NCBI GenBank assembly: GCA_024239075.1
Contig: JANBVI010000044.1
Coordinates: 121,251 to 185,250 of the forward strand
Direction: 5' to 3'
DNA: 64,000 bases
Origin: Fischerella sp. CENA71
GTDB taxonomy: Bacteria > Cyanobacteriota > Cyanobacteriia > Cyanobacteriales > Nostocaceae
Shown: one piece after another, positions 1-23,692 of the stretch
How the letters are laid out: every line of letters starts with the position of its first letter
Position numbering within the stretch: position 1 is the stretch's first letter
Position numbers and translations under genes: made by a program
The notes under the pieces: generated by a model
What the model saw: the letters and a program-made list of their open reading frames with translations, nothing else
Database searches by the model: none
Told to the model about the DNA's origin: nothing

Positions 1-532
1 AATATTTGGCATCTTCTGGTAGTAATATCGTAAATTGTTTGCGTCCGATAATTTGAAAAAAAATATTGTTAGTCAATAGACAATCAAAATGTAATGGTGT
101 AATACTATTAGATGAACCTAAGAAAAACTGACAATAACGCCACCACTTGTACCAGTACCATTTTGGTAAATAATCAAACGGAAATGGTTGAACATCTTCT
201 ATTAAAGAAGGTATTAAGCTAAATAAAGGTAAGTCATGACAATATGGCGGTAGAGGATTATTTTGAGGGTCTGTTTGATAAGTTTCTATTAGTTCTATAT
301 AACTTGTCATTGTCAAACGACATATATCAATTTTCTTATTACTAAATTTCTTGGCGTAAATATTTAGTGCGGGGGATAAATTTTTGAAAGAATTTAATGA
401 CCATTTATCAAAGCCACGCCAATTAGAAATTAATCCAGAGATTATGACTGGTTTAGCTAATTCAACATAATTTTTATGAAATTCATCACTTGATAGTTTA
501 TATCTTCTGTCTATTTCTGATGAAATGATCAT
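1..532 (-). CDS. JmjC/cupin-8-like oxygenase, 3' end outside window
   Basis: An open frame runs from an ATG at 532-530 to the left edge without a stop; 177 residues are visible. The sequence has the look of the cupin_8/JmjC family: an N-terminal stretch with KPVIISGLISNW (about residues 27-38) and the metal-ligand motif HFD at about 148-150 inside TPLHFD, followed by a FFQIIGRKQF segment typical of the jelly-roll core. Family members are Fe(II)/2-oxoglutarate hydroxylases; the second metal His would lie beyond the window. AAGGA stands about 9 bases before the ATG and overlaps the end of the preceding condensation-domain gene (11 bases between stop and start), so it is probably the next gene of the NRPS operon and a candidate tailoring hydroxylase. 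The substrate cannot be told. Confidence 0.75.
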   Translation of the reverse strand, partial: MIISSEIDRRYKLSSDEFHKNYVELAKPVIISGLISNWRGFDKWSLNSFKNLSPALNIYAKKFSNKKIDICRLTMTSYIELIETYQTDPQNNPLPPYCHDLPLFSLIPSLIEDVQPFPFDYLPKWYWYKWWRYCQFFLGSSNSITPLHFDCLLTNNIFFQIIGRKQFTILLPEDAKY

Positions 533-543
533 ACTTTATTTCC

Positions 544-1947
544 TTAAAATATTGAAGCGAGTTGCCAGTTAAATGATGCTTCTTTTTCTAAAGTTGTTGA
601 TATTTGCTGTTGGTGTGGTGTTGAGAATGATAAGTCTTTGATTTGAAGATTATGATTAGTTATTATTGCCTGTAGCAAGATTTCAAAATCAGTTAGGATT
701 CCGGTAATTGTAGTAATATCAAATCTATAATTGTCATAGGAAATTGCTACTATAATTTCTGATTCTGGATAAATAACTAAATTTAAAGGGTAGTTATTTC
801 TGTAATAAATTCCAGTTGCTTCAAATGCTATATTACCTGTCCAATTTTCTGCAAATTCACTAACTGGAAAGTTTTCAACTACAACAATAGTTTCAAACAA
901 TGGTAAATTTCGTGGTATTTCACTCCAACCTTGAATTTGTGTCAGTGGAGTGTATTCATGCTGACGCGTTTCTACTAATTGAATCTGAAAATCTTGTAAC
1001 CATGACAACAAATATTGCTCTGGATTTATTTTGACGTTGATTGGTAAAGTATTTATAAATACACCAACCATTGATTCTACTTCTGCTAAATCTACTGGTC
1101 TTCCCGTTACAGTACATCCATAGATTATATTATGGCGACAAGTATATCGACTCAGGAGAATAGACCAAATTCCATTAACTAATGTGGCAAGAGTAAAATG
1201 ATTTTGCGTAGCAAAAGATAGTAGTGATTTTGTAATTTCTTTTGAGAGTTTAATTCTCTCTTCATCATACCTTTCTTTCTGCTTATGTGATTGGTTATTT
1301 TCTAGGTAAGTTAGAGGAGTTGATGCTTTTATTCCTTGTAGCTCTTGTCGCCAAAAGCTTTCAGTCTTAGCTATATTTTGTTGCTGTAACCAGTCGATAT
1401 AATTTCTAAAAGGACGGGCTGGCAGTAATTTTATTTCTTTGGATTCACAAAGTGTAGTGTAAATTTTTAAACATTCCTCTAATATTATTGGGCCAGACCA
1501 TCCATCGATGATGATATGGTGATTACTCCAAATAAATTCATAGCGATCGCCAGCAAGACGAATCAAAGTTAAACGCATTAAACATGGTTGCGAAAAATCA
1601 AAACATAATTGGCGATCGCTCTCGAGAAATGATTTTAATTGCTCTTGTTGTTTTGCTGGTTCGATATCACGCCAATCATATTGATTCAAGCTAATTTTTA
1701 CTTTTTTATAGACAACTTGTAACGGGTTATCAATGTCTTCCCAATAAAATCCTGTACGTAATATTGTATGTCTATCTACTACTTGTTGCCATGCTTGTTC
1801 AAAAGCCTCTATATTTGGATGACCATGTAAAGTTAAGGTGTGGTGAAAGAAGTATAATGCTGATTCACTCGCATACAAACAGTGAAATAGCATACCCTTT
1901 TGGACTGGTGTAAGTTCATATATATCTTCGACATTTTCTGTTTTCAT
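544..1947 (-). CDS. Stand-alone NRPS condensation domain protein
   Basis: A 467-residue protein consisting of one condensation domain. It opens with VEDIYELTPVQKGMLFHCL, the usual start of a C domain and of acceptor docking (COM) helices, and carries an intact HHxxxDG motif (HHIIIDGWS, about residues 143-151). It ends shortly after the C domain, with no adenylation or carrier domain. Its closest look-alike in the window is the first C domain of the 12352-17007 protein, which also follows an epimerase-terminated protein, so a D-acceptor/L-donor (DCL-like) type is likely. Its ATG overlaps the TGA of the upstream PKS gene by four bases (ATGA), implying translational coupling. Probable role: form the peptide bond between the T-E terminus of the PKS module and the next, off-window, carrier. 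Confidence in the domain is high; the role is inferred. Confidence 0.9.
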   Translation of the reverse strand: MKTENVEDIYELTPVQKGMLFHCLYASESALYFFHHTLTLHGHPNIEAFEQAWQQVVDRHTILRTGFYWEDIDNPLQVVYKKVKISLNQYDWRDIEPAKQQEQLKSFLESDRQLCFDFSQPCLMRLTLIRLAGDRYEFIWSNHHIIIDGWSGPIILEECLKIYTTLCESKEIKLLPARPFRNYIDWLQQQNIAKTESFWRQELQGIKASTPLTYLENNQSHKQKERYDEERIKLSKEITKSLLSFATQNHFTLATLVNGIWSILLSRYTCRHNIIYGCTVTGRPVDLAEVESMVGVFINTLPINVKINPEQYLLSWLQDFQIQLVETRQHEYTPLTQIQGWSEIPRNLPLFETIVVVENFPVSEFAENWTGNIAFEATGIYYRNNYPLNLVIYPESEIIVAISYDNYRFDITTITGILTDFEILLQAIITNHNLQIKDLSFSTPHQQQISTTLEKEASFNWQLASIF

Positions 1948-4900
1948 TGTGCTTGTTTACCACCTAGTTGGTTAATTTTTGCCAGAAATTTATCTAAGTC
2001 TTGTTGGTTCAAGTTAGCTCTAGGAAAGTCGGAAGGTGTATATTTTTCTGCTGACAAAGACTGACAATGAGCAATTATGCTTCGTATAACTTCAATATAA
2101 CTTGCTGCTAAAGTTTCAATTGTTTCTCGCCGATGAACTGCTGTATTGTAAATCCAATTAAGTTGCAGTTGTTTTTGAACAATAATTCCGTTTATTTCCA
2201 GTAAGTAAAATCGATTTTTATTTGTACTTTGACTGAGTTTTATAGACTGATCAGTGTAATTAAATAAAGATGACTGTGATATTACAGGGTCAAAATTACC
2301 TAAATAGTTAAAATTGACTTGAGGTTGAGGGCAAGATTTTAACTTTGAATTTATTTCTGGATTATTGCTGATATAGCGCAGTATATCGTATCCAATACCT
2401 TTATTTGGAATTTTACGTAAATACTCTTTGACTGCGATTAATGCATTTCCTAGATCACAAGCTTCTGTGATATCTAAAATTACTGGAAAGCAAGTTGTAA
2501 ATAAACCAACTGTACGAGAGAAAGATATGTCTTTGGAATTTTTGAAAACTATATCTCGACCATTATCTTCAACATCTACCCATAGTTGCTGCTCTCCCGT
2601 CCACTTTGCAAAAGTTTGGATTAAAGCTGTTAGTAGAATATAGATTATTTCGGTATTATAAGCTTTGTTAACATTTTTTATTAAGGCTTGAGTTGCTGTT
2701 TTATCTAGAGAGACTGATACTATGTCACTATTCGCTACTATATTTTCATTTGCAGAATAGTCAACAGGTAGACTATGGAAAGGTATTTGGGATTTTGCTA
2801 ACCAGTAGTCCTGCTCATGCACCATTTCGGAAGTTTGAGCATACTCTTGAATAGACTGTGTCCACTGCTGGAAAGAAGCGGTTTGATCAGATAATTGTAT
2901 TGCTTCAGATTGACTGAGTTGTTGGTAGACTGTTTGCAAATCTTCTAACAAAATCTGCCAGGAAACAGCATCTACTAAAAGATGGTGAATGGTAATTAGT
3001 AGGTAGTTGTTTTGCTGCGATCGCAATTCAATAAAAGCAACATTTACCAGTAAACCTTCACTGAGGTTAGACTTGCTTTGTATTCCTACAACTGTAGATT
3101 CAAAAGCATGTTGTTGTTCATTTTCTGAAAGTGCAGACAAATTCACATGCTCATATACCATTATATCATTAGTATGAACTTCTATTTGCTGCCATTTAGA
3201 TTCTTTTTGAAGAAAACGCAAACGAAAAACATCATGATGTTCAATTACATATCTGACAGCTTCTTGTAAGATTTTGGGATTGCAGGTTTGTTGTATTTCC
3301 AGTAGTAAAGATTGGTTAAATGAATCTATGTTTGACTGATTTTGAGTTAATAATCGATGCTGAACAGGTGTGAGGTAAACTTCTCCAAGTTTCAAACTAT
3401 TTTTATTTGTTTCAATTACACCTATGGCTGTCACTAATTCAGCAATATTTGGGTGCATAAACATTTGCTGAGAAGTTAATTTCATGCCTAATGTGTTAGC
3501 CTTGGCAACAATTTGAATTGCAAGAATTGAATCTCCTGCCAATTCAAAAAAATTGTCATGAATACCAATTTTTTCAATACCTAGAAATTGTTGCCAAATG
3601 TCAGCTAGAGTCTGTTCAAATTTGTTACGAGGCGCAACATAAGCATTTGCTAAGTTTGGACGTGGATGGCTGGATTTTGAAATATTTGTTTTTGATGTCT
3701 GTGATATTAATGCTAATTCTTTTTCGAGATAATTGAAAGAATTATTATGCTCAATTACTGTTTGAAAGTCTTGCGTTGACACAATAACATGAGGTAAGCT
3801 ACTGAACAAAATGCGATTAAAAGCTTCGGCACCTTCTTGAGATAATATTCCTTTTTTGAGTTCCTGTTCACGTTGGAGCTTTAATTGTTCAGGTAGCTCT
3901 GTCTCTACTGCCATTCCTACATCTTGCCAAGAACCCCAATTTATTGCCACTGTATATTGGTCAGATTTAGAAGTACAATAATCTGCATAAACATCCAAAA
4001 ATGCATTAGCGGCACAATAATCTACCTGTCCAAATTCACTCAAAATAGAACTTTGAGATGAACAAAGTACTAAGAAATCTAAATTAATATTTTTTGATTT
4101 TAAAATTTCTTTTAATACTAATGTTCCTTGGATTTTTGGTGCAAATACACTATTTGCTATATCCTCTGTTTTTAGTTGAATTATACCACCGCCAGCAATC
4201 CCTGCTGCATGGATAACACCATTGATTTGACCAAATTTTTCTAAAGCTTCAGTAACAACTATCTGCATTTCTTCGTAGCTGGCAACATCGGCACTTTTAA
4301 CCTCAACTTCTGATCCTAACTCTGTAAATTCAAGTATTTTGTTGATTTTGCGACTAACCGAATCTTTACTATCATGTGCTTCTAACCATTGTTTCCAGTG
4401 CGATCGCTCAGGTAATCCCTTTCTACCAATTAAAATTAACTTAGCTTGTACTGTCTTTACTAAATGTTCTGCTAGGACCAAACCTATACCACCAAGTCCA
4501 CCAGTAATTAAGTAAACTCCTCCTTTTTTTAACTTAGTTTTACCTAAAATATCTTTATCTAAACGGATAGGTTCAAAGCTTTGAACCCAGCGATGATGTC
4601 CACGATAAGCAAGTATATTTTCAGTTTGCTGTGTTTTCAGTTCCGTAATCAGATAATCTATCAATTTCTCTGTTGATGGAATATTTGTACTAGGGATGAC
4701 TACATCAATCAGACAGGAATTAACATTTGGATATTCTTTGGGAATTATTTTACAAGGTCCCAATATCGTTGCTTTCTCTGGACATAACTTTTCATCACCG
4801 ATAACATTATGCACATTATTAGTGACAACTCTCAGTTTCAGAAAATCGCTGATATTTCGTTTTCCAAAAGCCTGGATACAATAAAGTAAACTCCAAAAAC

Positions 4901-7900
4901 CGAGATTTTGGCACTTTTCAAAACTTTGTGCTAATCCATCACAAGTTAAAGTATCATTTGGTGTAATGCTCCAAAAATGAGCAATAGCATTTGGAATTAA
5001 ACTCTGTTTGTGGAGTTCTTGCAGCAAAGTATCATAGTCATTTTTTTGCTGAGGGTTAATAGTATATGTATATTTGTGCAGTTGAGTAAATTTCTCTGCA
5101 ACTCTAACTGTAATAATATATTGACTCTGCTGTGCTAGTCGTTTTGCAACTGCATCTCCCACACCATAATCATCTACAAAAACTAACCAACGGCTGTTTT
5201 TCTCAGTTACAAATTCTTTTTGTTGGAAGAACTCAAGAGGTGTAGATTGTTTCCAGATTGGGATATAAAACCAATCAGCAATATTTGGTTTTTTCCCTAA
5301 TGATTCTTGGGATATCGTTGATAATGAAGTTTCAGAGTTAGCCTCAATCCAATAACGCTGACGCTCAAAAGGATAGGTTGGTAAACTCACATGTCTGCGT
5401 TGCTCATGAGCATAAAAGCCTGTCCAGTTAATTTGCAATCCTGTGAGCCAAAGCCGAGAAAGAGTATTGAGCAAAAATGCCACATCAGAAACTTGTTCCT
5501 GGGGATGTCGCAGCGAAGTCAGCGCCAGAATCTGTGAAAGCAACTGCCGTTTTACTAGGGTAGTTAATGTTCGTCCCGGGCCAACTTCCAAAAATATTCG
5601 CTCCGGCTGTTGTAACAGTTCGGCGATTCCCTCGTTAAACAATACAGGTTGGCGTAGATGTCTAGCCCAGTAATCAGCGTCAGTCGCCTGCTCTGCTGTC
5701 ATCCAAGTTCCAGTGAGGTTAGATATAAAAGGTATTTGAGGTGGTTTTAGGTTAATTTCTCTAACATGCCGTACAAATGGCTCTAAAATCGACTCCATCA
5801 TCTGGGAATGAAAAGCATGAGATGTATGCAGTCGCCGACAATCCACACCTTGCTCAATTAAACGATTTTGTAATGCTTCTATCGCATTCGTAGCACCAGA
5901 AACCACACAAAGCGACGGAGCATTGCTTGCTGCTAAAGAAAGTTCTGAACCCAACATTGGTTGTATTTCTTGAGCAGAAATAGAAACAGAAAGCATCGAT
6001 CCAGATTCAGTTTGTTGCATTAGTCGTCCACGAATTACGACTAAATTCAACGCTTCTTCTAAAGAAAAAACACCCGAAATACAAGCAGCTACATACTCGC
6101 CAATGCTGTGACCAATCATTGCTTGTGGATGCACACCCCATGCCATCCAAAGTTTAGCCAGAGCATATTCAATCACAAATAATGCAGGTTGCGTTAAGAA
6201 AGTTTGTTGAAGTTCTGTTTGTGTAGTTTTTAAATTTGAGGGATAAAGTATCTGTTTGAGGTCTAAGTTTAAATGTGGTTTTAGTAATTTACAGCAATCA
6301 TCAATTTGTTGCCGAAAAATCAGTTCTGTTTCATATAATTCCCGCCCCATGTTTACATACTGCGCTCCCTGTCCGGGAAACATAAATATGAAGGGATGGT
6401 TACGAGTTTCGGAAAAATTACTCCAAACTCCTTGTTTATCTGGATCTGTGAGTGTTGTTATAGCGTCTTCAGTATTTCGACATAGCAACACTCGACGATA
6501 GTTAAAATTTCGCCGACCAACTTGCAAAGTATAAGCAACATCAGCCAGGTTAATATCAGAATGCTGTACTAAATAATTCGCAAGATTATTTGTAGCAGAT
6601 TCCAAAGCCGTTGGAGTTTTTGCAGAAATAAATAATAACTGCCAAGGGCGCGATTGTAGAGACGCGCCATGACACGTCTCTAGAACGGTCGCTTCTTCTA
6701 AAATTACATGGGCATTAGTACCGCCAATACCAAAAGAACTAACTCCTGCACGTCTAGGATGTTTGTCTGTTTTCCATTCAGAAAGTTTATTATTAACATA
6801 AAATGGGCTGTTGGCAAAATCAATCTGAGGATTTGGCTGCTCAAAATGCAGACTGGGAGGAATTTGTTTATATTTTAGAGCTAAGACTGTTTTAATTAAA
6901 CCTGCAACACCAGCAGCTGCATCTAAATGCCCAATATTTGTTTTTAGAGAACCAATTGCACAGAAGTTTTTCTTTTTTGTACTTCTTTGAAATGCCTGTA
7001 TCAACGCAGCAATTTCAATCGGATCTCCTAAACAAGTTCCGGTTCCATGAGCTTCAATATAAGTTATTGTTTCTGCGTCTACCTCTGCAACAACTTGAGC
7101 AGTTTTAATAACTTTTGCTTGACTTTCGATGCGGGGAGCTGTGTAGCTAACTTTGTTTGATCCGTCATTATTAATAGCAGAACCTTTAATCACAGCATGG
7201 ATAACATCTCTATCATTTAAGGTATCTTCTAATCTTTTCAAAACAACAATTCCGACACCTTCTCCAGTCACAGTCCCCTGTGCTTTAGCATCAAAGGCAC
7301 GACAATGTCCATCAGGAGAATTAATACCTCCTTCGTTATAAATATAGCCAGATTTTCTGAAGGCGCTAATAGAAACACCGCCAACTAAAGCCATATCACA
7401 TTCACCGTTTAGCAAACTTTGGCAAGCTAAATGTACGGCTACTAATGAGGTTGAGCAAGCTGTTTGAACTGTATAGCTAGGGCCTGTTAAATTAAGTTTG
7501 TAAGAAGTACGTGTAGCTAGGTAATCTTTATCCCCAGCAATTGTTATTTGACGTTCGTCTGTAGAGTTTCTAATATTTTGATTTAAATAAATGTTTAGTA
7601 AATAACCGCTTAAGCTAGAACCAGCAAAAACACCTATAGAACCATTGTATGTTTCAGAGTTATACCCTGCGTTTTCTAAAGCTTCCCAAGCACATTCTAA
7701 AAAAATTCGGTGTTGGGGATCAGTCATTTCTGCATCTCTAGGATTAAAACCAAAAAAAGCAGCATCAAACAATTCTGCATCTTCTATAACAGCATTAGCT
7801 TTAACATAATTGGGTTGACTGATAAGTTTTGCATCTATTCCTGATGCTAATAATTCTTCATCACTAAAAAAAGATATTGATTCTATACTATTTTGTAGAT

Positions 7901-8006
7901 TATGCCAAAACTCATCAATATTTTTAGCTCCTGGAAATCTTCCTGCTAACCCAATAATTGCTATTTCTGAGCCGTTGGTTAAATATGGTTTTTTTGGAAT
8001 ATTCAT
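1944..8006 (-). CDS. Hybrid PKS module KS-AT-KR-T with C-terminal epimerase-type domain
   Basis: A 2020-residue type I PKS module. Domains: ketosynthase (about 14-440) with active-site Cys184 in TACSTS and the downstream EAHGTGT and NIGHLDAAAG histidines; acyltransferase (about 545-860) with Ser634 in GHSIGEY and HAFHS, the malonyl-CoA-type signature; ketoreductase (about 1155-1420) with GGLGGIG and a VDYCAAN tyrosine; no DH or ER. The carrier (Ser1493 in AGDSI) is of the NRPS type found before epimerases, not a classical PKS ACP. It is followed by an epimerisation-like domain: HHLLVDAVSW at 1674, an E4-like VEDNGRD, RTVGLFTT, IPNKGIGYD and FNYLG. The C-terminus has TPSDF and a short helix, like a donor COM domain. 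It lies 13 bases after the preceding NRPS gene. A PKS module ending in an E domain is unusual, because a ketide has no alpha-amino carbon to epimerise. Confidence 0.92.
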   Translation of the reverse strand: MNIPKKPYLTNGSEIAIIGLAGRFPGAKNIDEFWHNLQNSIESISFFSDEELLASGIDAKLISQPNYVKANAVIEDAELFDAAFFGFNPRDAEMTDPQHRIFLECAWEALENAGYNSETYNGSIGVFAGSSLSGYLLNIYLNQNIRNSTDERQITIAGDKDYLATRTSYKLNLTGPSYTVQTACSTSLVAVHLACQSLLNGECDMALVGGVSISAFRKSGYIYNEGGINSPDGHCRAFDAKAQGTVTGEGVGIVVLKRLEDTLNDRDVIHAVIKGSAINNDGSNKVSYTAPRIESQAKVIKTAQVVAEVDAETITYIEAHGTGTCLGDPIEIAALIQAFQRSTKKKNFCAIGSLKTNIGHLDAAAGVAGLIKTVLALKYKQIPPSLHFEQPNPQIDFANSPFYVNNKLSEWKTDKHPRRAGVSSFGIGGTNAHVILEEATVLETCHGASLQSRPWQLLFISAKTPTALESATNNLANYLVQHSDINLADVAYTLQVGRRNFNYRRVLLCRNTEDAITTLTDPDKQGVWSNFSETRNHPFIFMFPGQGAQYVNMGRELYETELIFRQQIDDCCKLLKPHLNLDLKQILYPSNLKTTQTELQQTFLTQPALFVIEYALAKLWMAWGVHPQAMIGHSIGEYVAACISGVFSLEEALNLVVIRGRLMQQTESGSMLSVSISAQEIQPMLGSELSLAASNAPSLCVVSGATNAIEALQNRLIEQGVDCRRLHTSHAFHSQMMESILEPFVRHVREINLKPPQIPFISNLTGTWMTAEQATDADYWARHLRQPVLFNEGIAELLQQPERIFLEVGPGRTLTTLVKRQLLSQILALTSLRHPQEQVSDVAFLLNTLSRLWLTGLQINWTGFYAHEQRRHVSLPTYPFERQRYWIEANSETSLSTISQESLGKKPNIADWFYIPIWKQSTPLEFFQQKEFVTEKNSRWLVFVDDYGVGDAVAKRLAQQSQYIITVRVAEKFTQLHKYTYTINPQQKNDYDTLLQELHKQSLIPNAIAHFWSITPNDTLTCDGLAQSFEKCQNLGFWSLLYCIQAFGKRNISDFLKLRVVTNNVHNVIGDEKLCPEKATILGPCKIIPKEYPNVNSCLIDVVIPSTNIPSTEKLIDYLITELKTQQTENILAYRGHHRWVQSFEPIRLDKDILGKTKLKKGGVYLITGGLGGIGLVLAEHLVKTVQAKLILIGRKGLPERSHWKQWLEAHDSKDSVSRKINKILEFTELGSEVEVKSADVASYEEMQIVVTEALEKFGQINGVIHAAGIAGGGIIQLKTEDIANSVFAPKIQGTLVLKEILKSKNINLDFLVLCSSQSSILSEFGQVDYCAANAFLDVYADYCTSKSDQYTVAINWGSWQDVGMAVETELPEQLKLQREQELKKGILSQEGAEAFNRILFSSLPHVIVSTQDFQTVIEHNNSFNYLEKELALISQTSKTNISKSSHPRPNLANAYVAPRNKFEQTLADIWQQFLGIEKIGIHDNFFELAGDSILAIQIVAKANTLGMKLTSQQMFMHPNIAELVTAIGVIETNKNSLKLGEVYLTPVQHRLLTQNQSNIDSFNQSLLLEIQQTCNPKILQEAVRYVIEHHDVFRLRFLQKESKWQQIEVHTNDIMVYEHVNLSALSENEQQHAFESTVVGIQSKSNLSEGLLVNVAFIELRSQQNNYLLITIHHLLVDAVSWQILLEDLQTVYQQLSQSEAIQLSDQTASFQQWTQSIQEYAQTSEMVHEQDYWLAKSQIPFHSLPVDYSANENIVANSDIVSVSLDKTATQALIKNVNKAYNTEIIYILLTALIQTFAKWTGEQQLWVDVEDNGRDIVFKNSKDISFSRTVGLFTTCFPVILDITEACDLGNALIAVKEYLRKIPNKGIGYDILRYISNNPEINSKLKSCPQPQVNFNYLGNFDPVISQSSLFNYTDQSIKLSQSTNKNRFYLLEINGIIVQKQLQLNWIYNTAVHRRETIETLAASYIEVIRSIIAHCQSLSAEKYTPSDFPRANLNQQDLDKFLAKINQLGGKQAQ

Positions 8007-8019
8007 TATTTATTAATCC

Positions 8020-15300: not shown

Positions 15301-17007
15301 TAATACTGAGGCTTTGGCGTCTTCTAAAATAAATTCTAATCGCTCTTTCGGATAGCTTGGATCTAATGGTATGTATGCACCACCTGCTTTGAGAATACCC
15401 AAAAGTCCGATGACCATATCGAGCGAGCGCTCTACACAAATCCCCACCAATACTTCTGGTTTTACTCCCAGTGAGCGTAAATAATGTCCTAGTTGATTTG
15501 CTCTGGCGTTGAGTTTCCTGTATGTTAATTGTTGGTCTTCAAATACTACTGCAATTGCATCTGGTGTTTTTTCTACCTGTGCTTCTAATAACTCATGAAT
15601 ACACTGTTGAGGATATTTAGCCTGAGTCTGGTTCCACTCCACGAGCAACTGACGTTGCTCAGATTCTGTCAACAGTGGTAATTCTGACAAACGCTGCTGT
15701 GGATTAGTTACCATACCCTCTAGTAAAGTCTGCAAATGTCCCAGCATCCGAGTGAGAGTATCAATGTTAAAGCGATCGCCATCATCGGAAGTAATCTTGA
15801 GCAACAATTCTTCACCAGGAATCACAGTCAGGGTAATCGGATAGTTAGTCTTTTCAAACCCATGAAAATCCTTGATCTGCAAATCTATATCGCTCTGCTG
15901 TAAGGAAGCATCTATAGGATAGTTCTCAAAAACTATAATACTTTCAAACAAAGATAAACTTTTGGGAACTTCGCTCCATCCTTGGATTTTTACTAATGGA
16001 CAATACTCGTATTGGCGTACCTCTACTAGTTGATCTTTAATTTTTTCTAGCCAAGGCAAAATAAATTCTTCAGGTGGTACTTTTACTCTAATCGGCAATG
16101 TATTAATTAACAGCCCTACCATCGACTCGATTTTAGCTAAAGTCGCAGAACGACCAGAAGTTACAGCTCCAAAAACTACGTCCTCCTGACCACTGTAGCG
16201 GCTCAATAGCAAAGCCCAAGCACCCTGTACTAGAGTATTGAGTGTTAATTGGTGTTGCATTGCGAACTGTCGCAGTGCTGCTGTTGTGACTACAGAAAGC
16301 TTTACTTGTTGCTCATGATAGCTATCGGTTTGAGTCAGTAGTTTTTTAGTTAGTTTATTTACTGATATCTGTGTTGGAGTAGTAAAGCCTCTAAGCGTCT
16401 GTTGCCAGAAAGCCTCAGCTTCAGATAGACTTTGTTGCTGTAGCCAGACAATATAATCTCGATATGGGCGAATAGGTTCTAAGCATATATCCTGATTCTT
16501 GGTAAAAGCTTTGTAATAATTAATTACTTCCTTAAAAACTAAGGCAGTAGACCAGCCATCTAACAACAGATGATGATTACTCCAGGTAAAGTTATAAGAG
16601 TTCTCCGAAAGTTGAACCAGTGTTAGACGCATCAATGGTGGGTGGGTCAATTTAAAGCCACTAGAGCGATCGCTCTGCCAAAAAAGCTGTAATTTTTGTT
16701 GTTGTTCTTCTAAAGATAAATGTTGCCAGTTATACTCCTCCCACGGTAGAGATACCTGTCGATGAACAATTTGTACTGGTTCTTTTAAGCCTTCCCAAAT
16801 AAAGCAGGTTCGTAGAATTGCATGTCGTTCTACAACATATTGCCATGCGCGACGGAATGCTGTAATGTTGAGTTTTCCTTCGAGAGTCCAGCTTAATTGT
16901 TCAAAATAGACGCTAGATTTTGAGTCTGCAAGACTATGGAAGAGAATACCCTGCTGCATAGGCGAGAGGGGATAAAACTCTTCAATGTTTTTGTTTTTCA
17001 CACCCAT
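12352..17007 (-). CDS. NRPS C-A-T-C (Gly-like adenylation code)
   Basis: A 1551-residue NRPS. First C domain (about 10-440) with NHHLLLDGWS at 144-153 and an acceptor-COM-like start (EEFYPLSPMQQGILFHSL); adenylation domain (about 480-960) with YTSGSTGKPKG near 616 and YGPTET; carrier Ser1008 in GGHSL; second C domain (about 1055-1490) with an intact HHxxxD (HHIIFDAWS, from His1198). The A-domain code reads DILQLGMIWK, one position from the Gly code I recall (DILQLGLIWK). The last 55 residues are Lys/Glu-rich and helical, probably docking. The start is one base after the stop of the FAAL-NRPS. The trailing C domain is unusual for a protein end and fits with the next module lacking a competent C domain. 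Two stretches of the A domain are nearly identical in DNA to the truncated NRPS at the right edge. Confidence 0.93.
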   Translation of the reverse strand: MGVKNKNIEEFYPLSPMQQGILFHSLADSKSSVYFEQLSWTLEGKLNITAFRRAWQYVVERHAILRTCFIWEGLKEPVQIVHRQVSLPWEEYNWQHLSLEEQQQKLQLFWQSDRSSGFKLTHPPLMRLTLVQLSENSYNFTWSNHHLLLDGWSTALVFKEVINYYKAFTKNQDICLEPIRPYRDYIVWLQQQSLSEAEAFWQQTLRGFTTPTQISVNKLTKKLLTQTDSYHEQQVKLSVVTTAALRQFAMQHQLTLNTLVQGAWALLLSRYSGQEDVVFGAVTSGRSATLAKIESMVGLLINTLPIRVKVPPEEFILPWLEKIKDQLVEVRQYEYCPLVKIQGWSEVPKSLSLFESIIVFENYPIDASLQQSDIDLQIKDFHGFEKTNYPITLTVIPGEELLLKITSDDGDRFNIDTLTRMLGHLQTLLEGMVTNPQQRLSELPLLTESEQRQLLVEWNQTQAKYPQQCIHELLEAQVEKTPDAIAVVFEDQQLTYRKLNARANQLGHYLRSLGVKPEVLVGICVERSLDMVIGLLGILKAGGAYIPLDPSYPKERLEFILEDAKASVLLTQTSLLKAIPQHKAQVVCLDTDDQLIGEQSQENLLCELTTDNLAYIIYTSGSTGKPKGVQIPHRALSNFLSSMKQTPGFSQNDTLLAVTTYSFDIAALELFLPIVVGGRLVIASREVASDPIQLSAKMTDSKATVVQATPATWQLLVTANWSGNQQLKILCGGEALPRHLANQLLERCGSLWNMYGPTETTIWSAASAVKAQGQLIPISHAIANTELYILDQYNQLVPVGVVGQLHIGGEGLARGYFNRPELTAEKFIPHPFSKQPGKSLYQTGDLGRYLPNGEIEYIGRIDHQVKIRGFRIELGEIEAVISQYSGVRENVVVARNDSSGEQRLIAYLVGEIEQRFILSQLRSFLESKLPSYMIPTNFVTLDSLPLTPNRKVDRKALPALDTIRSEVEETYVAPQTTVEKQLTTIWMQVLGFKNIGINDNFFELGGHSLLATQVISRIQKIFNIELPLRQVFELPTIAKLAKSISDKNEAAKFIPPIERVSREIALPLSFAQQRLWFLHQLNRKSYTYNGSSAVLLKGSLNVKALEQSINEIARRHEILRTCFQNVNGQPVQIIASALEIPLSIVDLQHLPDTEREAEIQRLRLANYQQPFDLTQVPLLRLTLLRLKNREYILLITMHHIIFDAWSEGVFIQELSLLYKAFSSGNYSPLPEVNIQYVDFANWQRNWLENEVLDTLLKYWKKQLGDNLPVLRLPKIHQSSKVKISEEERQILRLSQTLSQGIKKLGDSLGTTLFMTLLAAFKVLLYWYTGDKDIVVGTDIANRNKIEIENLIGFFVNQLVLRSNLFDNPTFSEFLQQVRQVCLEAYAHQDLPFEKLVSTLNPKRDLNQTPLFQVKFILQNAPTHDLAISDLNLTRLNDLEHTVARFDLLLELTDTEQGIVGLLKYNKDLFDANSIARLSNNFETILSQVVVNPAIRLNELEEILIKSDKEYQLKQKENRKEKYQQKLNLIKRRAIQIISEVEDKHETGKNNP
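14130..14421. repeat. Near-identical block shared with 63709-64000
   Basis: About 291 bases encoding the end of the A domain match 63710-64000 with only two visible differences (T/C in the tagcttgg-aac stretch and C/T in the caatcaaa-g stretch). On the right the match is cut only by the window edge. Neighbouring A domains in this window are much less alike, so this is a recent duplication or gene conversion rather than general family similarity. Confidence 0.92.
15521..15707. repeat. Near-identical block shared with 61932-62118
   Basis: About 187 bases at the C-to-A linker and A-domain start match 61932-62118 with one visible difference (acgagc versus acaagc). Identity ends abruptly on both sides: at the GGATTAG word on one side and, on the other, exactly where the right-hand NRPS loses its A domain. 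Confidence 0.92.
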
Positions 17008-17008
17008 G

Positions 17009-20000
17009 TTACATATCTCTCATAGCTGCTGTAATAGCATCGAGATCGGTTTGATCCCATTGGCTTTGCTTAAACTCTGCGAAATCGGAAGGAGTAAAAC
17101 TACCTGCATCCTGAGACTGACAATGAGCAATGAGCGATCGCAATGCTTTAATAAAGTTTTGAGCAAGTACTTCAATCGTGGTTTGGAGATGCACTTTGTT
17201 GCTGTAAGACCAGTTCACTTCCAGATTTCCCTGATAAATACCACTATTAATTTCCAGTAAGTGAGTTCTTTTACTTCTTAAACTGCGAGTGGAACCAGTG
17301 GTTCCCTGCACTAAGTTAAACAAAGATGATTCTGGTAAAAGTTGATCGAATTGTCCTAAATAGTTAAAAATTACTTCAGCCTTTGACAAAGAAAATTGCT
17401 CGTTTACTCCTTGAGCCCGATTTAGATAGCGCAGTAATCCATAGCCTATACCTCGATTTGGAATTGCTCGTAGCTGCTCTTTAATCGACTTTAGAGCTGT
17501 TCCTTGATCTCTGGTATTTTCAAGATTTAGATGTACAGGAAATATAGTTGTGAACCAACCTACAGTCCTTGATAAATCCACATCCTCAAAAATCTCTTCT
17601 CGTCCATGTCCTTCTAAATCAATGAGAAAAGAACTTTCTCCTGTCCATTCGTTAAATGTTTGTATAAGTGCTGTTAATAATACATCATTAATTTGTGTTC
17701 GGTAAGCTGCTGATACTTGTTGTAGTAAAGTTTGAGTTTCTTCGACAGACAGCGATACCGATACAACAGAACTAGTTTTTTCTAGATTATGTTCACCAGG
17801 AAAATCTCTTGGTATAGGCGAAACCAATTGATGTTGTGTTGTCAGCCAAAAGTCTAGCTCTGAAAGTAGTGTTGAAGATTGTGCATATTTCTGTAGACAG
17901 TCAGACCATTGTTTGTAAGAAGTTGTTTTGGGCGGCAAATTTATTGCTTTACCTTGACTAATTTGCTGATAAGCTGTTTGAAAATCTTCAATTAAAATTC
18001 GCCAAGAAACACCATCAACAACTAAATGGTGAATAATCCAAAGCAAGCGGTTAGGTTGATTTTCACCCAAATTGAACAGCGCAACCCAAAATAACGGCCC
18101 TTGTGAGAGATTTAAGCTAGCTTGCAGTTTATTAGTCACTGCTTCTATTGCTTGTGCTTGTTTATCTTTTGGTAATGCTGAAAAATCGAAGCATGTTAAT
18201 GGTATGAGATCATCAGGACTAGCGATTAGTGCTTGAGTACTAGATTCCTCCTGGATAATTCGTAAACGCAGAACATCATGATGTTTTTGTAGAGACTCTA
18301 GGATTTTCTCTAAGAGTACTGGGTTAAGGTTCTGCTTGCTTTCTAACAACACTGACTGATTCCAGTGGTGTGGTTCTGGTTGATTTTGTTGTAAAAACCA
18401 CTGCTGAATAGGGGTTAGTTCCAACAAACCAGTTACTAACATCTGCTCGGCTGAGATTTTTTTGGTTGTTCCAGCTACAACCGCTAGTTGAGCAATTGTT
18501 TGATATTGAAACAATTGTTTAGTAGTCAGATTTAACCCAAGTTGGTTAGCTTTAAATATTACTTGCAAGCTCAGGATAGAATCTCCACCTAATGTAAAAA
18601 AGTTATCATTTATACCTATTTTTTCTAAACCTAATACCTCTGTCCAGATAGCAGCTAACTGTTTTTCAACACTTGTTCTTGGTTCAACAAAGGTTTCTTT
18701 GAGTTCTAAATGTAATGTATCAGGTGCTTTTAATGCTTTGCGATCAACCTTACCATTTGGTGTGAGTGGTAATGAATCTAATATTACAAAAGCTACTGGA
18801 ATCATGTAGCTTGGTAACTTTGATTCTAGAAAGTCACGTAGTTCAGGAATTATCAGTGTTTGTGCTTTTTGGGGAACTATATAGGCGACTAAACGTTTAG
18901 AATCTGCTGAATCTTCACGTACTACAACCACAGCTTCTCGGACTGCGAGATGTTGATTGATAACTGCTTCAATTTCTCCGAGTTCAATACGGAAACCCCG
19001 TAGCTTAATTTGGTTATCAATACGACCAATGTATTCTATCTCTCCATTTGGTAGATAGCGGGCTAAATCTCCTGTTTTGTACAACCGTTCTCCTGTCTGA
19101 TTTGTGTAGGGATTGGGAATAAATTTATCTGCGGTCAGTTCTGCTTTGTTGAGATATCCACGAGCTAAACCTGCACCGCCGATATACAACATACCAGGTA
19201 CACCTACAGGAACAGGTTGTAAATTTTTATCCAACAAATAGGTCTGGGTGTTGTGAATCGGACAACCAATAGGTGGAGTGGTGGTAGCACCTTTCTGTAT
19301 CCAAGCAAAAGTTGAATAGGTTGTATCTTCAGAAGGACCATATAAGTTAAAGACTCGTTGTATATTATTTTGCTGATAAAGTTGTTGTACAAGTTGATTC
19401 TGAAGTGGTTCGCCTGCGATATTTACAGTATGTACAGAAGTTGGAATGCTATCAGTTCTTAGTAACTGTGAAATTACACTTGGGACAGTATTAATTAAGG
19501 TTATATTACCGGCTTTTGCCAAAGTTGATAAATGTAGTGCATTCTCGATAAAGATGACCTGACCACCGCAACACAGAGGAACAAACATCTCAAATACAGA
19601 AAGGTCAAAGCAAATTGAAGTTGAAGCTAAAATTCTTTGTTTGGCTTCAACTCCAAAAGTTTTGTTTGCCCAATCCAACATTGCAACTGTGCTACTGTGT
19701 TTAATCATCACACCTTTGGGTTTGCCTGTGGAACCAGAGGTGTAGATGACATAAGCTAGGTTGTCAGTAGTTACTTCAGAGAATATATTTTCCTGGTTTT
19801 GTTGAGCTACCAGGTGGTAATCAGTATCTAAACAAACAACCTGAGCTTTGTGTTGAGGAATTTGTTCTAGAAGCGACGCTTGAGTGAGCAACACTGATGC
19901 TTGGGCGTCTTCTAATATAAATTCCAACCGTTCTTTTGGATAGTTAGGATCTAGTGGAATATATGCGCCACCTGCTTTGAGAATGGCTAATAGTCCAATG

Positions 20001-23000
20001 ACCATATCGAGCTTACGCTCTAGACAAATCCCTACCAATACTTCTGGTTTGACTCCTAATTCTTCCAAATAATGCGCTAGTTGATTTGCTCTAGCGTTGA
20101 GTTCGCGATAGGTTAATTGCTGATTTGCAAATACCACTGCAACTGCATTTGGTGTTTTTTCTACTTGTGCTTCAAACAGTTGATGAATGGAGTTATCTTG
20201 AGGATAGTCTGTTTTGGTATCATTCCACTCAATTAATAACTGTCGTAGTTCAGGTGGCGTTAGTAATTGCAAATCTGAGATGCGTTGCTTTGAATTCCTA
20301 ACTATACCTTCCAGTAAAGTTTGGAAATGTCCCAGCATCCGAGTAATGGTATCTGCATTAAATAAATCCGTGTTGTACTCGCAAGTAGCAATTAACCCTT
20401 GCTGGGAGTCCTCCATAAACAAGGTCAAATCAAACTTAGATGTGCTGTTGTACACTTCCTCATAACTAACCGATATATCTGCTAGATTGAGATTGGGTTT
20501 TGGCACATTTTGCAGAACGAACATCACCTGAAAGAGTGGGTTGTAGCTCAAGTCTCTGCTTGGTTGTAGTTCTTCTACTAATTTTTCAAAAGGTAAGTCT
20601 TGATGAACATAAGCTTCTAAAGCAGTTGACTTCACCTGCGCTAACAACTCCTGAAAACTCAGATCGTCAGAAAGATTTGTACGCAACACTAAAACATTGA
20701 TAAAAAATCCTATTAATGATTCGATTTCTGCTCTGTTACGATTGGCAATTGGTGAACCAACTAAAATATCAGTTTGACCTGTGTAGCGATACAGCAAGAT
20801 TTTGAAGGCTGTAAGCAAGGTCATAAATAGAGTTACTCCCTGCTGACGGCTCAATTTCTTGAGTTTTTTAGTCAGGGTTGGGGAAAGAACTGATTTCGCT
20901 TGAGCGCCTTTGAAGGTTTGAACTGACGATCGCGGACGGTCAGTTGGTAAATTTAGTACAGGAAGTTCACCGCTCAACTTTTGTTTCCAATAGGTCAATA
21001 ATGGTTGAATGCGATCGCTCTCGCCATTCAGCCATTGTTGTTGCCAATTGACAAAATCTCTATACTGAATAGGTAATTCCGCAAGTGGTGAAAGTTCGCC
21101 ACTAGCAAATGCTTTATAAAGCGCAGTTAGTTCTTTGATGAAAACACCGATAGACCAACCATCTGCAATTATATGATGAAAACTCACAATTAAATGATAA
21201 TTTTTATCATTTAATTGTAAAATTTTAGTACGTATAAGCGATTCAGCAGATAAATCAAAGGGTTGCTGTGCTAATTCCCTAGCCAAATGTTGTGCTGTGC
21301 TATTGCGTTCATTTTCTGGTAGTGAGCGTAAGTCTTCAACTGCCAAAGTTAAAGGTACAGCTTGATTGATGACTTGCACAGATTGTCCATCTACCACTGT
21401 AAAGCTTGTGCGTAATACTTCGTGTCGTCTAATAATTTCGTTCAGACTATCTTCTAAGACAGCTAGGTTAACACAGCCTGTGAACTGAATAACTATAGGA
21501 ATATTGTATGTAGGAGCATCGGGATTTAACTGGTTGATAAACCATAATCCTTGCTGATCAAAAGATAGAGGATAAATAGATGTATATGTATTTTGTTGTT
21601 GAGTATGTTGAGTCAGAGATAGTGAGGGTAGTCCATCTGTCGTCATTTGAGCAAGGATTTTAGTGACGAGCGATCGCACATTCATCCCTGCAAAGAAGTC
21701 TGCTACCGATACTTCTATTTCCAAGTCAACTTCAATCTGGTTTTTCAACTCAAATACTTTTAAAGAATCAAGTCCGAGAGTACCTAATGGTTCTTGAGGA
21801 TTAATCTTATCTGCTGTAATTACCAGTACTCCTGCCAACAGTTCAATTAGATATGATTCTAAAAGTGGTTGACATTCCCGTGGAGAAAGCGCCAAAAGTT
21901 CAGAACGCTGTAATTGAGTTTCTTTTATTGCAATATTACTATTTTTGAGAATATTGCTTGCAACTACATTGAGTTCACCCTGCTCAAACCGAGCACGAGT
22001 AGCACGTCTTTGAATCTTACCACTAGAAGTTTTAGGAATGCTACCTGGTTTAATCAAGACTACACCATAAACTTGTACCTCATGTTCTTCAGTAACCGCC
22101 TGACGAATTGCAGAAATTACTTCTTCTAAATTTGGCTTGGCGCGAAACTCCAATTCTTGTACAATTACCAGCCGTTCTTCATGATTAACTTCGACTGTAA
22201 ATGCTGCACCAGCACCAGAACGTAATGATGGATGACTGCGTTCTGCGGTTGATTCTATATCTTGCGGATAAAGATTTCGACCACGAATAATAATTAAGTC
22301 TTTGGCTCTTCCTGTAATGAAAAGCTCGCCATTCTGTAAAAACCCTAAATCTCCTGTCCGCAAGAATGGCCCTTTACCTGTGTCTGATAAATAAGCGTGG
22401 AAGGTTTCTTTTGTCTGTTGGGGACGATTCCAATAACCTTGACCAACACTCGGCCCAGATACCCAGATTTCTCCGATTTCATTCAGTTTACAACTACTGA
22501 GTGTTTCTGAATTGGCAATGACTACCTCTTGTTCTGGTATAACTCGACCACAACTGACAAAATGATAAGCATCTTCATCTTGAGCAGATGATTCTACTAC
22601 GCGATGGAATTCTAATGCAGATTTTGCGACTGTTTTGATAGTTGGTACTGTTAGCTTCTCTACACCAGAAATCATCAGAGTTGTTTCCGCCATTCCATAA
22701 CAAGGATAGAAGGCTTGTTTCCGAAAACCACACTCAGCAAAAGCTTCTGCAAACCTTTCTAAAGTATCATACCGAATCGGTTCAGCACCGTTAAATGCTA
22801 CACTCCAACTACTCAAATCAAGAGTTTGTTTTTGTTCAGGTGTAATTTTTTGAGTACATAATTCATAGGCAAAGTTGGGAGCGCCACTTGTTGTACCTTG
22901 ATAGCGAGAAATAGCTTGCAACCAACGATAAGGACGTTGCAGAAAAGAAGCTGGAGGCATTAAGATGCAGGGGAAACCTCCATACAAAGGTTGCAATATT

Positions 23001-23692
23001 CCGCCAATCAGACCCATATCATGGTAAGTCGGCAACCATGAGATAAACTTACTTTCGGCTGAATGCTCCATGAATTGGTAAGTCGTGGCAGCATTATGTA
23101 TTAAATTTCCATGACTAATCATGACACCCTTGGGTGTGCCTGTAGAACCAGAGGTATATTGCAGAAAAGCTTGGGTATCTTGAGCAATAGAGGGTGCTTG
23201 CCAAGTGTCTTCTATTCCCAGAGCAAGATTATCAGTGGTTAACCATTGCAAAGATTCTACATCAGTTTTTTGTGTCATTAAAGACCGCACTGTAGATACA
23301 ATTTCTGTTGTCGTCAGAGCGATCGCTGCTTGTGCATCTGTGGAGATTGCTTTGATTCTTGGTGTATTGCGCTCATTTCGAGGCGGATATGCAGTTACCG
23401 CCACGACTCCCGCGTATAAGCAACCAAAAAAAGCGACTAAAAAATCTAGCCCTGGGGGATAGAGTAGTAAAGCCCGTTCTCCAGCCAAACCCAATGCTTG
23501 TAACTGAGCAGCTACTCGACGCGATCGCCTATCTAGTTCTTGATAGGTTAATGTTGCTTTTTCTGTTTCCCCATCTAATAAAAAGGTAAAAGCATTTCTA
23601 TCTGGCTGCGTAGAGCTTCTGAGGCGCAGTAATTCGACGACTGTAGAAAAATCACCCCAATGATCACAGAAGCTATGAGAAAATTTACTCAT
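17009..23692 (-). CDS. Lipopeptide starter NRPS: FAAL-ACP-C-A-T-E (Ala-like code)
   Basis: A 2227-residue starter enzyme. Residues 1-585 are a fatty acyl-AMP ligase (YTSGSTGTPKG at 179-189, then a Gly-Met-Ala-Glu core and a SSGKIQRR-type tail), which activates a free fatty acid as acyl-AMP. An ACP follows (Ser643 in GLDSL); a C domain (HHIIADGWS from 839); an adenylation domain (YTSGSTGKPKG near 1316, YGPSED) whose code I read as DLFNNALTYK, identical to an Ala code I recall; a carrier (Ser1705 in GGDSI, the form preceding epimerases); and an E domain with PIQQWF, HHLVVDGVSW (1888), EGHGRE and RTVGWFTT, all apparently intact. The C-terminus (TPSDF plus helix) resembles a donor COM domain. Predicted action: load a fatty acid and join it to Ala, then epimerise to D-Ala. 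First gene of the operon; about 1.1 kb divergent from the TonB-dependent receptor. Confidence 0.94.
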   Translation of the reverse strand: MSKFSHSFCDHWGDFSTVVELLRLRSSTQPDRNAFTFLLDGETEKATLTYQELDRRSRRVAAQLQALGLAGERALLLYPPGLDFLVAFFGCLYAGVVAVTAYPPRNERNTPRIKAISTDAQAAIALTTTEIVSTVRSLMTQKTDVESLQWLTTDNLALGIEDTWQAPSIAQDTQAFLQYTSGSTGTPKGVMISHGNLIHNAATTYQFMEHSAESKFISWLPTYHDMGLIGGILQPLYGGFPCILMPPASFLQRPYRWLQAISRYQGTTSGAPNFAYELCTQKITPEQKQTLDLSSWSVAFNGAEPIRYDTLERFAEAFAECGFRKQAFYPCYGMAETTLMISGVEKLTVPTIKTVAKSALEFHRVVESSAQDEDAYHFVSCGRVIPEQEVVIANSETLSSCKLNEIGEIWVSGPSVGQGYWNRPQQTKETFHAYLSDTGKGPFLRTGDLGFLQNGELFITGRAKDLIIIRGRNLYPQDIESTAERSHPSLRSGAGAAFTVEVNHEERLVIVQELEFRAKPNLEEVISAIRQAVTEEHEVQVYGVVLIKPGSIPKTSSGKIQRRATRARFEQGELNVVASNILKNSNIAIKETQLQRSELLALSPRECQPLLESYLIELLAGVLVITADKINPQEPLGTLGLDSLKVFELKNQIEVDLEIEVSVADFFAGMNVRSLVTKILAQMTTDGLPSLSLTQHTQQQNTYTSIYPLSFDQQGLWFINQLNPDAPTYNIPIVIQFTGCVNLAVLEDSLNEIIRRHEVLRTSFTVVDGQSVQVINQAVPLTLAVEDLRSLPENERNSTAQHLARELAQQPFDLSAESLIRTKILQLNDKNYHLIVSFHHIIADGWSIGVFIKELTALYKAFASGELSPLAELPIQYRDFVNWQQQWLNGESDRIQPLLTYWKQKLSGELPVLNLPTDRPRSSVQTFKGAQAKSVLSPTLTKKLKKLSRQQGVTLFMTLLTAFKILLYRYTGQTDILVGSPIANRNRAEIESLIGFFINVLVLRTNLSDDLSFQELLAQVKSTALEAYVHQDLPFEKLVEELQPSRDLSYNPLFQVMFVLQNVPKPNLNLADISVSYEEVYNSTSKFDLTLFMEDSQQGLIATCEYNTDLFNADTITRMLGHFQTLLEGIVRNSKQRISDLQLLTPPELRQLLIEWNDTKTDYPQDNSIHQLFEAQVEKTPNAVAVVFANQQLTYRELNARANQLAHYLEELGVKPEVLVGICLERKLDMVIGLLAILKAGGAYIPLDPNYPKERLEFILEDAQASVLLTQASLLEQIPQHKAQVVCLDTDYHLVAQQNQENIFSEVTTDNLAYVIYTSGSTGKPKGVMIKHSSTVAMLDWANKTFGVEAKQRILASTSICFDLSVFEMFVPLCCGGQVIFIENALHLSTLAKAGNITLINTVPSVISQLLRTDSIPTSVHTVNIAGEPLQNQLVQQLYQQNNIQRVFNLYGPSEDTTYSTFAWIQKGATTTPPIGCPIHNTQTYLLDKNLQPVPVGVPGMLYIGGAGLARGYLNKAELTADKFIPNPYTNQTGERLYKTGDLARYLPNGEIEYIGRIDNQIKLRGFRIELGEIEAVINQHLAVREAVVVVREDSADSKRLVAYIVPQKAQTLIIPELRDFLESKLPSYMIPVAFVILDSLPLTPNGKVDRKALKAPDTLHLELKETFVEPRTSVEKQLAAIWTEVLGLEKIGINDNFFTLGGDSILSLQVIFKANQLGLNLTTKQLFQYQTIAQLAVVAGTTKKISAEQMLVTGLLELTPIQQWFLQQNQPEPHHWNQSVLLESKQNLNPVLLEKILESLQKHHDVLRLRIIQEESSTQALIASPDDLIPLTCFDFSALPKDKQAQAIEAVTNKLQASLNLSQGPLFWVALFNLGENQPNRLLWIIHHLVVDGVSWRILIEDFQTAYQQISQGKAINLPPKTTSYKQWSDCLQKYAQSSTLLSELDFWLTTQHQLVSPIPRDFPGEHNLEKTSSVVSVSLSVEETQTLLQQVSAAYRTQINDVLLTALIQTFNEWTGESSFLIDLEGHGREEIFEDVDLSRTVGWFTTIFPVHLNLENTRDQGTALKSIKEQLRAIPNRGIGYGLLRYLNRAQGVNEQFSLSKAEVIFNYLGQFDQLLPESSLFNLVQGTTGSTRSLRSKRTHLLEINSGIYQGNLEVNWSYSNKVHLQTTIEVLAQNFIKALRSLIAHCQSQDAGSFTPSDFAEFKQSQWDQTDLDAITAAMRDM

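Follow-up and report, generated by a model that had tools for sequence, protein, structure and literature searches.

According to the accessible part of its description (PMC12628792), cyanochelin B carries β-hydroxyaspartate (β-OH-Asp), its structure having been determined by NMR and MS, and is the product of a hybrid polyketide synthase/nonribosomal peptide synthetase (PKS/NRPS) line. Its cluster, on plasmid AP017310 of Leptolyngbya sp. NIES-3755, served as the reference for the locus described here, which lies in a 64,000-nucleotide stretch (the window) of Fischerella sp. CENA71, positions 121251–185250 of contig JANBVI010000044.1 (C44), the right end of the window being that of the contig. 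The locus is a cluster of about 50 kb on the minus strand, read leftwards from position 23692 of the window, with its first half in the window and the remainder beyond the left edge. We consider it probable that a FAAL-started NRPS/PKS line here makes a lipopeptide metallophore for excretion, most likely a cyanochelin-like siderophore, which has its own receptor, binding protein and permease. The domain order, substrate codes, hydroxylase clade, interface-type domain and linkage with transport genes and an acylase could be read from the DNA; that the product would bind iron is what we infer. A preliminary description had considered the embedded PKS module at odds with the cyanochelins, which is mistaken for cyanochelin B (PMC12628792).

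The assembly line and its asparagine-type module

The cluster begins with a gene for FAAL, acyl carrier protein (ACP), condensation (C), adenylation (A), thiolation (T) and epimerization (E) domains (17009–23692), predicted to supply the acyl starter and D-Ala. The assignment is based on Pfam, NCBIfam, the A code and intact E motifs (EGHGRE and GWFT), FAAL models being the best informative matches for the starter domain, though under their own cut-offs. There follow, all on the minus strand, a C-A-T-C protein with a Gly-type A domain (12352–17007; Pfam and code), the first C of which clusters with C domains placed after E domains; a TauD-type Fe(II)/2-oxoglutarate hydroxylase (11361–12389; PF02668, alignment and tree), with WHNEN and H320 present in the alignment; an interface-type C domain without HHxxxDG (C*), with A and T (8020–11256; domain search, code and C tree); a ketosynthase-acyltransferase-ketoreductase-T (KS-AT-KR-T) module with a malonyl-type AT (GHSIGE/HAFH) and a degenerate E-like domain (1944–8006; domain search and motifs); a stand-alone C domain (544–1947; domain search and C tree), which also clusters with C domains placed after E domains; and the first part of a JmjC/Cupin_8 hydroxylase (2–532; domain search), the complete gene being C44:120901–121782. 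These domain calls and their colinearity agree with the preliminary description, and its expectation of more residues off the left edge is borne out by NRPS/PKS genes read there (see below).

A codes were taken from a MAFFT alignment at what we take to be the pocket positions of the Ala domain. The five amino-acid A codes of the cluster are DLFNNALTY (Ala), DILQLGMIW (Gly), DLTKIGEVG, DIWEMVADD and VDWIISLAN, so that the Ala, Gly and Asn codes given earlier were recovered by the alignment. As a calibration, both Asp domains of the cyanochelin B synthetase were read as DLTKIGHVG, and we take the E for H in DLTKIGEVG to mark an Asn code. The earlier call of Asn rather than Asp is upheld by this difference and by the hydroxylase clade, in which Asn is common to all coded rows.

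A total of 115 TauD copies was collected, with a readable downstream A domain for 78. In a tree of 109 copies, 60 Asn-partnered and 8 Asp-partnered, the partner requires 2 changes, compared with 7.7 in shuffles (0/500 as low), a test inflated by near-copies. The clade of the window enzyme comprises 28 rows, 27 of them cyanobacterial and one from a genome titled Gracilibacteria; 27 of the 28 could be coded and all 27 are Asn. Asn-partnered TauD domains fused to NRPSs were also observed in Streptomyces, Amycolatopsis and Kutzneria (L080–L098).

The C* domains downstream of TauD genes lack HHxxxDG in 12 of 12 cases, and a tree built on the C-terminal lobe places them all in a single group, both NIES-3755 copies included. 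The domain in the window thus precedes an A domain, adjoins a hydroxylase gene and groups with known interface domains. A 2019 survey of β-hydroxylases, which reportedly defined the family, paired interface domains with siderophore hydroxylases, and the C* of the window appears to match the domains described there. Of the proposal of a new lipopeptide siderophore made in the preliminary description, a new siderophore-type cluster is thus the best-supported reading, since the C* groups with those of cyanochelin B and the receptor and transport genes travel along in most relatives read.

The C-A-T-C protein seems to be a chimera. At this place all five relatives read (Westiellopsis, Pelatocladus, two Komarekiella and Nostoc B(2019)) have two C-A-T modules before the last C, of the Gly-Gly type in Westiellopsis and Pelatocladus and of the Ala-Gly type in Komarekiella and Nostoc B(2019); in Komarekiella atlantica it is the first module that has the Ala code. 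The two A cores of Pelatocladus show no difference across the 150 residues compared. They match the Gly domain of the window, and it is within that core that the window protein passes from the sequence of the first to that of the second. An inner piece (A C-terminal end-T-C-A N-terminal end; 61932–64000, minus strand; DNA and protein match) is misplaced at the contig end; its DNA is 95.7% identical to that of Westiellopsis across 1887 bp and, across 292 bp, 99.3% identical to the Gly A domain of the window itself. When the genome was searched with the stretch between the two Pelatocladus cores (L049:4120–5529), the C44 end was matched at 90% over the last 192 residues of the query. Most of the other 278 residues belong to a methyltransferase domain inserted into the first Gly A domain of Pelatocladus (L049:3523–5121); Westiellopsis has an insertion of equal size, to judge from a gap in the alignment with it, and the piece in the window continues without one. 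Accordingly, Pelatocladus and Westiellopsis would make N-methyl-Gly at this position and Fischerella plain Gly.

These data suggest that C-A-T-C is a collapsed assembly of C-A-T-C-A-T-C and that the true residue order is most likely D-Ala-Gly-Gly. The D-Ala, Gly, Asn and ketide units of the earlier product order are supported by codes and domains, but its single Gly is probably Gly-Gly. Since the missing piece of the Gly module sits at the contig end, genes to the right of about 61932 do not truly neighbour the cluster. A real deletion, with the piece transposed 44 kb away, is what the contig as assembled says; however, both breakpoints fall within the repeated A region or at its border, the piece reaches the contig end and 5/5 relatives keep two modules in place, making this very unlikely. 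The residue at position 1 varies, being Ala in the window, Asn in Westiellopsis and another code in Komarekiella; an acyl-D-Asn prodrug, considered on account of Westiellopsis, is thus not general.

A diaminobutyrate-type cassette, PKS modules and the terminus

Left of the window, the JmjC gene is followed by genes for a class III aminotransferase (EctB; C44:119585–120865), a half-C-A-T protein (C44:116771–119536), KS-AT-KR-T (C44:112094–116749), a pyridoxal phosphate-dependent decarboxylase (PanP; C44:110404–112059), two further KS-AT-KR-T modules (C44:105952–110352 and C44:101310–105929), a methyltransferase (C44:100499–101257), C-A-T with a thioesterase (TE; C44:96163–100338) and a P450 (C44:94817–96163), with an SDR and then a MATE gene further on.

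The stand-alone C, JmjC hydroxylase, EctB and half-C-A-T, in this order, form a cassette that is probably for hydroxylated diaminobutyrate (Dab). The aminotransferase passes the EctB equivalog cut-off (573.0 vs 552.2), and this, together with the acidic pocket (E, D, D) of DIWEMVADD, makes Dab the likely substrate of the half-C-A-T protein. A search with the half-C in 388 genomes of the class (Fischerella sp. CENA71 included, here and below) gave ten genomes at 43% identity or more, compared with at most 40%, and nearly always at most 35%, for ordinary C-lobes. EctB is directly upstream of half-C-A in the 8 other genomes with the upstream stretch in view (8/8); the ninth, G229, has EctB, JmjC and C grouped on a different contig.

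At an E-value of 1e-30 the JmjC enzyme was detected in 2 of the 388 genomes, and among 24 close genomes it occurs in 7 at 80% identity or more and in 3 more at 29–33%. Its best solved relatives are JMJD5 structures, and since JMJD5 is an arginyl C-3 hydroxylase (a title in the reference list of PMC7524897), the enzyme may plausibly hydroxylate a basic residue at C-3. All 6 JmjC genomes (the window, Westiellopsis, Komarekiella, Nostoc NMS8, Nostoc JL34 and G229) have the code DIWEMVADD, whereas 7/7 JmjC-less cassettes have T or S instead of its V and an eighth (G371) gave no code (Fisher p 6e-4, ignoring kinship; at 52%, G229 is roughly as far from the window as are the JmjC-less copies). Asp-type A domains occur, within the stretch fetched, in 3 of these 7 JmjC-less cases; there is none among those read in four JmjC clusters (the window, Komarekiella, JL34 and NMS8, the latter minus its last module). 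The idea that the JmjC enzyme docks on the half-C was rejected, 8 of the 9 other half-C-A genomes having no JmjC match at 1e-30. A second JmjC-like gene (36%) is located directly upstream of the FAAL gene in Komarekiella (G391:C75:169695–170651), and there is one of 26% in Nostoc JL34, with none between the FAAL and TonB genes in the window.

The E-like domain after the first PKS module has EDNGRD for EGHGRE and GLFT for GWFT. Thus, the KS-AT-KR-T-E module reported earlier is present, but its E domain is degenerate, with both motifs lost. Among E-type domains picked by BLAST, blind to the motif, EGHGRE is kept in 0/6 PKS-linked versus 18/19 others, the lone exception (G375) being an E directly before the same C/EctB/half-C-A cassette; an NRPS T-E precedes the stand-alone C in 6 of 8 JmjC-less cassettes. 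We infer that the PKS module replaced an amino-acid module and left a jobless E behind. Of the three PKS modules left of the window, one has a degenerate AT (GDGIGE, no HAFH, an internal deletion), and in four relatives the last shows weaker conservation of its KR than of its KS (59–83% vs 85–95%). With the nucleotide motif of this KR lost (FGGLDNIE), the final ketide may be left as a β-ketone.

The decarboxylase passes the PanP equivalog cut-off (613.9 vs 606.1), and a function as Dab decarboxylase was dismissed on this ground and on that of the RhbB model (158 vs a cut-off of 900). The last A code, VDWIISLAN, with its Val-Asp start, is presumably of the β-alanine type, so the chain would probably end, after Dab and three further PKS modules, in β-alanine released by the TE. 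In G229:C84 (L173) a PanP-like decarboxylase and an NRPS share one open frame, the last A code being VDAVFSLAD. A second multi-module NRPS region (six AMP-binding matches) is present on the same contig at C44:159–21666.

Transport genes, acylase and regulation

Beyond the synthetase lie genes for a TonB-dependent siderophore receptor with an AMIN domain (24810–27614, plus strand; TIGR01783 over cut-off), a FecB-type periplasmic binding protein (28054–29031, plus strand), an MsbA-like ABC exporter (29515–31329, minus strand), a FecE-type ATPase (35468–36268, minus strand) and two FecCD-type permeases (36272–37312 and 37309–38340, minus strand), the last five assigned by profile matches. They are the transport genes listed in the preliminary description, but their cassette is split by UbiA, methyltransferase and PMT_2 genes (32078–35467, plus strand). 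The latter are absent between the exporter and FecE in 3/3 relatives read on both sides (Komarekiella and two Nostoc) and are probably an insertion, not part of the system. A FetA-like ATPase of an iron-export ABC pair (38644–39345, plus strand; best NCBIfam match FetA, under cut-off) and a FetB-like permease (UPF0014; 39345–40136, plus strand; PF03649, FetB model under cut-off) are located directly before the acylase gene, and the pair (38644–40136) is beside the cluster in Komarekiella too.

In Komarekiella the complete biosynthetic operon is flanked by FetB-FetA-acylase-FecC-FecC-FecE-(339 aa)-exporter-FecB-TonB; Westiellopsis has just TonB, FecB and the exporter beside it. Of 24 related genomes, 20 have a TonB receptor no more than 50 kb from the Asn-clade hydroxylase. 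Among the remaining four, there is a receptor at 35% in Gloeocapsopsis, two have the hydroxylase on contigs under 50 kb without one, and Desmonostoc shows none on the contig. In Westiellopsis, Komarekiella, Nostoc JL34 and Nostoc NMS8, respectively, identity is 90, 77, 66 and 53% for the receptor and 89, 77, 48 and 44% for FecB; it is 81–92% for FecCDE in three relatives read and 82–94% for the exporter in four. The receptor and FecB thus diverge most where the N-terminal modules are swapped (JL34 and NMS8), while FecCDE and the exporter hardly change, as expected if the receptor follows the ligand. A siderophore receptor and uptake genes conserved with the cluster, as in the cyanochelin type, are therefore found here, with FecCDE not beside the cluster in Westiellopsis.

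The acylase (40215–42320, plus strand) belongs to the penicillin amidase family (PF01804) and, with Ser192 at the processing site and a hydrophobic N-terminus judged by eye to be a signal peptide, has the PvdQ-type traits of an Ntn hydrolase with predicted export and a Ser nucleophile. It is closer to glutaryl-7-ACA acylase (688 bits) than to PvdQ (218 bits) and under the NCBI PvdQ equivalog cut-off (256.5 vs 950 bits). Among the 388 genomes, 33 have the acylase, 43 the TauD hydroxylase and 24 both (Fisher p 1.8e-19); within the window's own family the acylase is in 8/8 hydroxylase genomes versus 1/16 others (p 1.2e-5). In 18 of the 24 genomes with both, the two genes share a contig, 16 of these pairs being no more than 40 kb apart and a seventeenth possibly close across a circle's origin, and the 24 close genomes all have the acylase. 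This linkage points to a probable tail hydrolase acting on the siderophore, which in the window's group may serve in trimming on uptake, recycling or PvdQ-like maturation. The acylase is not a fixed part of all cyanobacterial β-hydroxy-acid lipopeptide clusters, 19 of the 43 TauD genomes being without it. One genome without it, G211, is very probably the cyanochelin B producer NIES-3755, since its two TauD copies lie at the same places as on plasmid AP017310, at zero tree distance. That cyanochelin B was isolated with its acyl chain, as the accessible part of PMC12628792 has it, fits a producer lacking the acylase. No paper joining cyanochelin and acylase was found, most subscription journals, including the cyanochelin A paper, being outside the search, so that the point may be noted there.

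An 11-base piece of the Anabaena-type Fur 19-mer occurs at 38526, upstream of the Fec permeases, 13 of 100 shuffles being as good. Since Fur-like sites are not above chance, we make no claim of iron regulation. Between the FAAL and TonB genes, a non-coding block conserved in Westiellopsis, Komarekiella and Nostoc JL34 (about 24308–24382) matches no consensus known to us and may be the site of a shared regulator.

Alternative readings and comparison with known systems

In the pathway that we propose, FAAL would load a fatty acid, to which D-Ala, Gly and Gly are added, and the TauD enzyme, docked on the interface domain, would β-hydroxylate carrier-bound Asn. One ketide unit would follow, then Dab made by EctB and 3-hydroxylated by the JmjC enzyme, on the chain or beforehand, then further ketides, the last perhaps still a β-ketone, and β-alanine made by PanP. 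After release by the TE, the P450 and the methyltransferase would decorate the product, the Ntn acylase would trim or recycle the acyl tail outside the cytoplasm, and the ferric complex would re-enter via the TonB receptor, FecB and FecCDE. A more specific scenario, to which we give little credence, is that a siderophore lineage swapped β-OH-Asp for β-hydroxyasparagine (β-OH-Asn) plus JmjC-hydroxylated Dab (perhaps with a 3-acyl-piperidinedione formed from the unreduced last ketide and β-alanine) and, unlike the cyanochelin B producer, has its own periplasmic tail acylase. It draws support from the V/T/S difference in the cassette code and from the distribution of Asp-type A domains described above.

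Several observations weigh against a siderophore of this type. None of the five amino-acid A domains read has the Asp-type code that Asp activation of the cyanochelin type calls for, the hydroxylase falls outside the clades of both cyanochelin B enzymes (CyanoBH_Asp1/2, with the NIES-3755 enzymes as stand-ins), and β-OH-Asn is not, to our knowledge, a recognised strong iron ligand. Dab and hydroxy-Dab are predicted units only, and Nostoc JL34 has a second half-C unit without an adjoining EctB. As to linkage, no FecCDE genes were present in the 115 kb read round the Westiellopsis cluster, the acylase of that genome is more than 100 kb away, and no receptor match was obtained on the cluster's contig in Desmonostoc (G408). 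The acylase is absent from the 19 TauD genomes mentioned above at an E-value of 1e-100, and from 16 of them also at 1e-20 (including G211), the other three having only distant acylases (27–30%). Searches with E. coli-type and Anabaena-type Fur 19-mers gave nothing above shuffles.

Some of these points would suit a bioactive lipopeptide (antifungal or antibacterial, like the laxaphycins or turnercyclamycin), with the transport genes serving another siderophore or a self-protective import. In the accessible part of PMC7524897, β-OH-Asn is known from laxaphycin-type peptides, with Cupin_8 hydroxylases proposed for it; Asn-partnered hydroxylases also occur in Streptomyces, Amycolatopsis and others, and no Fur site stands above chance. 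As far as PMC12971057 was accessible, it counts turnercyclamycin, a β-OH-Asp lipopeptide, as a false positive of its models and notes that peripheral transporters can be coincidental. The transport genes here, however, recur with homologous clusters of other genera, a test that the coincidental transporters of that study failed, and receptor divergence follows the module swaps; on balance we regard a bioactive lipopeptide as rather unlikely. A metallophore for another metal, or a signalling or uptake ligand, would be in keeping with the unusual candidate ligands, and the TonB, FecCD and FecB families also import other metals and B12 complexes. But the receptor is over the siderophore-receptor cut-off, and iron models score best for the transport proteins, though under cut-offs, which renders this reading distinctly improbable. 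We thus favour the iron siderophore.

The locus marks out a clade of NRPS hydroxylases paired with asparagine, and its EctB/half-C/A cassette with an optional JmjC enzyme is a possible new chelating unit. The probable tail hydrolase accompanies some of the cyanobacterial lipopeptide siderophore clusters and is missing in the probable cyanochelin B producer; tail clipping by some cyanobacteria would bear on who uses iron in mats and biofilms, a question near the cyanochelin B work. Among the papers found to pair hydroxyasparagine, siderophore and cyanobacteria, with most subscription journals outside the search, none is titled as a siderophore paper. According to the accessible part of PMC12971057, further hydroxylase clades co-occur with transporters and were left out of its rules for lack of evidence; the Asn clade of the window may be one of these.

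Like the cyanochelin B cluster, that of Fischerella has a FAAL acyl start and a PKS/NRPS hybrid line, a TauD hydroxylase followed by an HH-less C domain and A-T (each of the TauD hydroxylases in NIES-3755), and divergent TonB receptor, FecB and FecCD genes. In contrast, the cyanochelin B cluster has two Asp-type A domains and hydroxylases of other clades; its product has thiazoline, Phe, Ser and an ethanolamine end (PMC12628792, accessible part), and the cluster has neither an acylase nor, in AP017310 1–40000 and 80000–98206, any relative of JmjC, EctB or PanP. The clusters of Desmonostoc vinosum (G283) and Gloeocapsopsis crepidinum (G037) resemble that of the window in a TauD enzyme (68–70%) with an Asn-type A domain and an adjoining acylase (72–73%), Gloeocapsopsis also in receptor and FecB relatives and Desmonostoc in PanP (61%). 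However, a TauD fused to an NRPS and paired with an Asp-type A domain is present in them as well, their module order differs, and they show EctB-like matches of just 27–28% and no half-C.

PvdQ (pyoverdine) and the marinobactin acylases MhtA/BntA are Ntn hydrolases with a Ser nucleophile that are linked to acylated siderophores. The acylase of the window is likewise such a hydrolase and is linked to a candidate acylated siderophore, but differs from PvdQ in its closeness to glutaryl-7-ACA acylase. The JmjC enzyme resembles, by description and not by sequence, the Cupin_8 hydroxylases of the scytocyclamide/laxaphycin clusters (PMC7524897, accessible part) as a JmjC-like enzyme in a cyanobacterial NRPS cluster, whereas here it is beside EctB, a Dab-type A domain and siderophore transport genes. 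New here are the C/JmjC/EctB/half-C-A-T cassette, the predicted β-alanine terminus and a linked hydrolase of the PvdQ/cephalosporin-acylase family. Because the cluster would work like those of the cyanochelins but fails the defining residue of the family, we file it as a cyanochelin variant.

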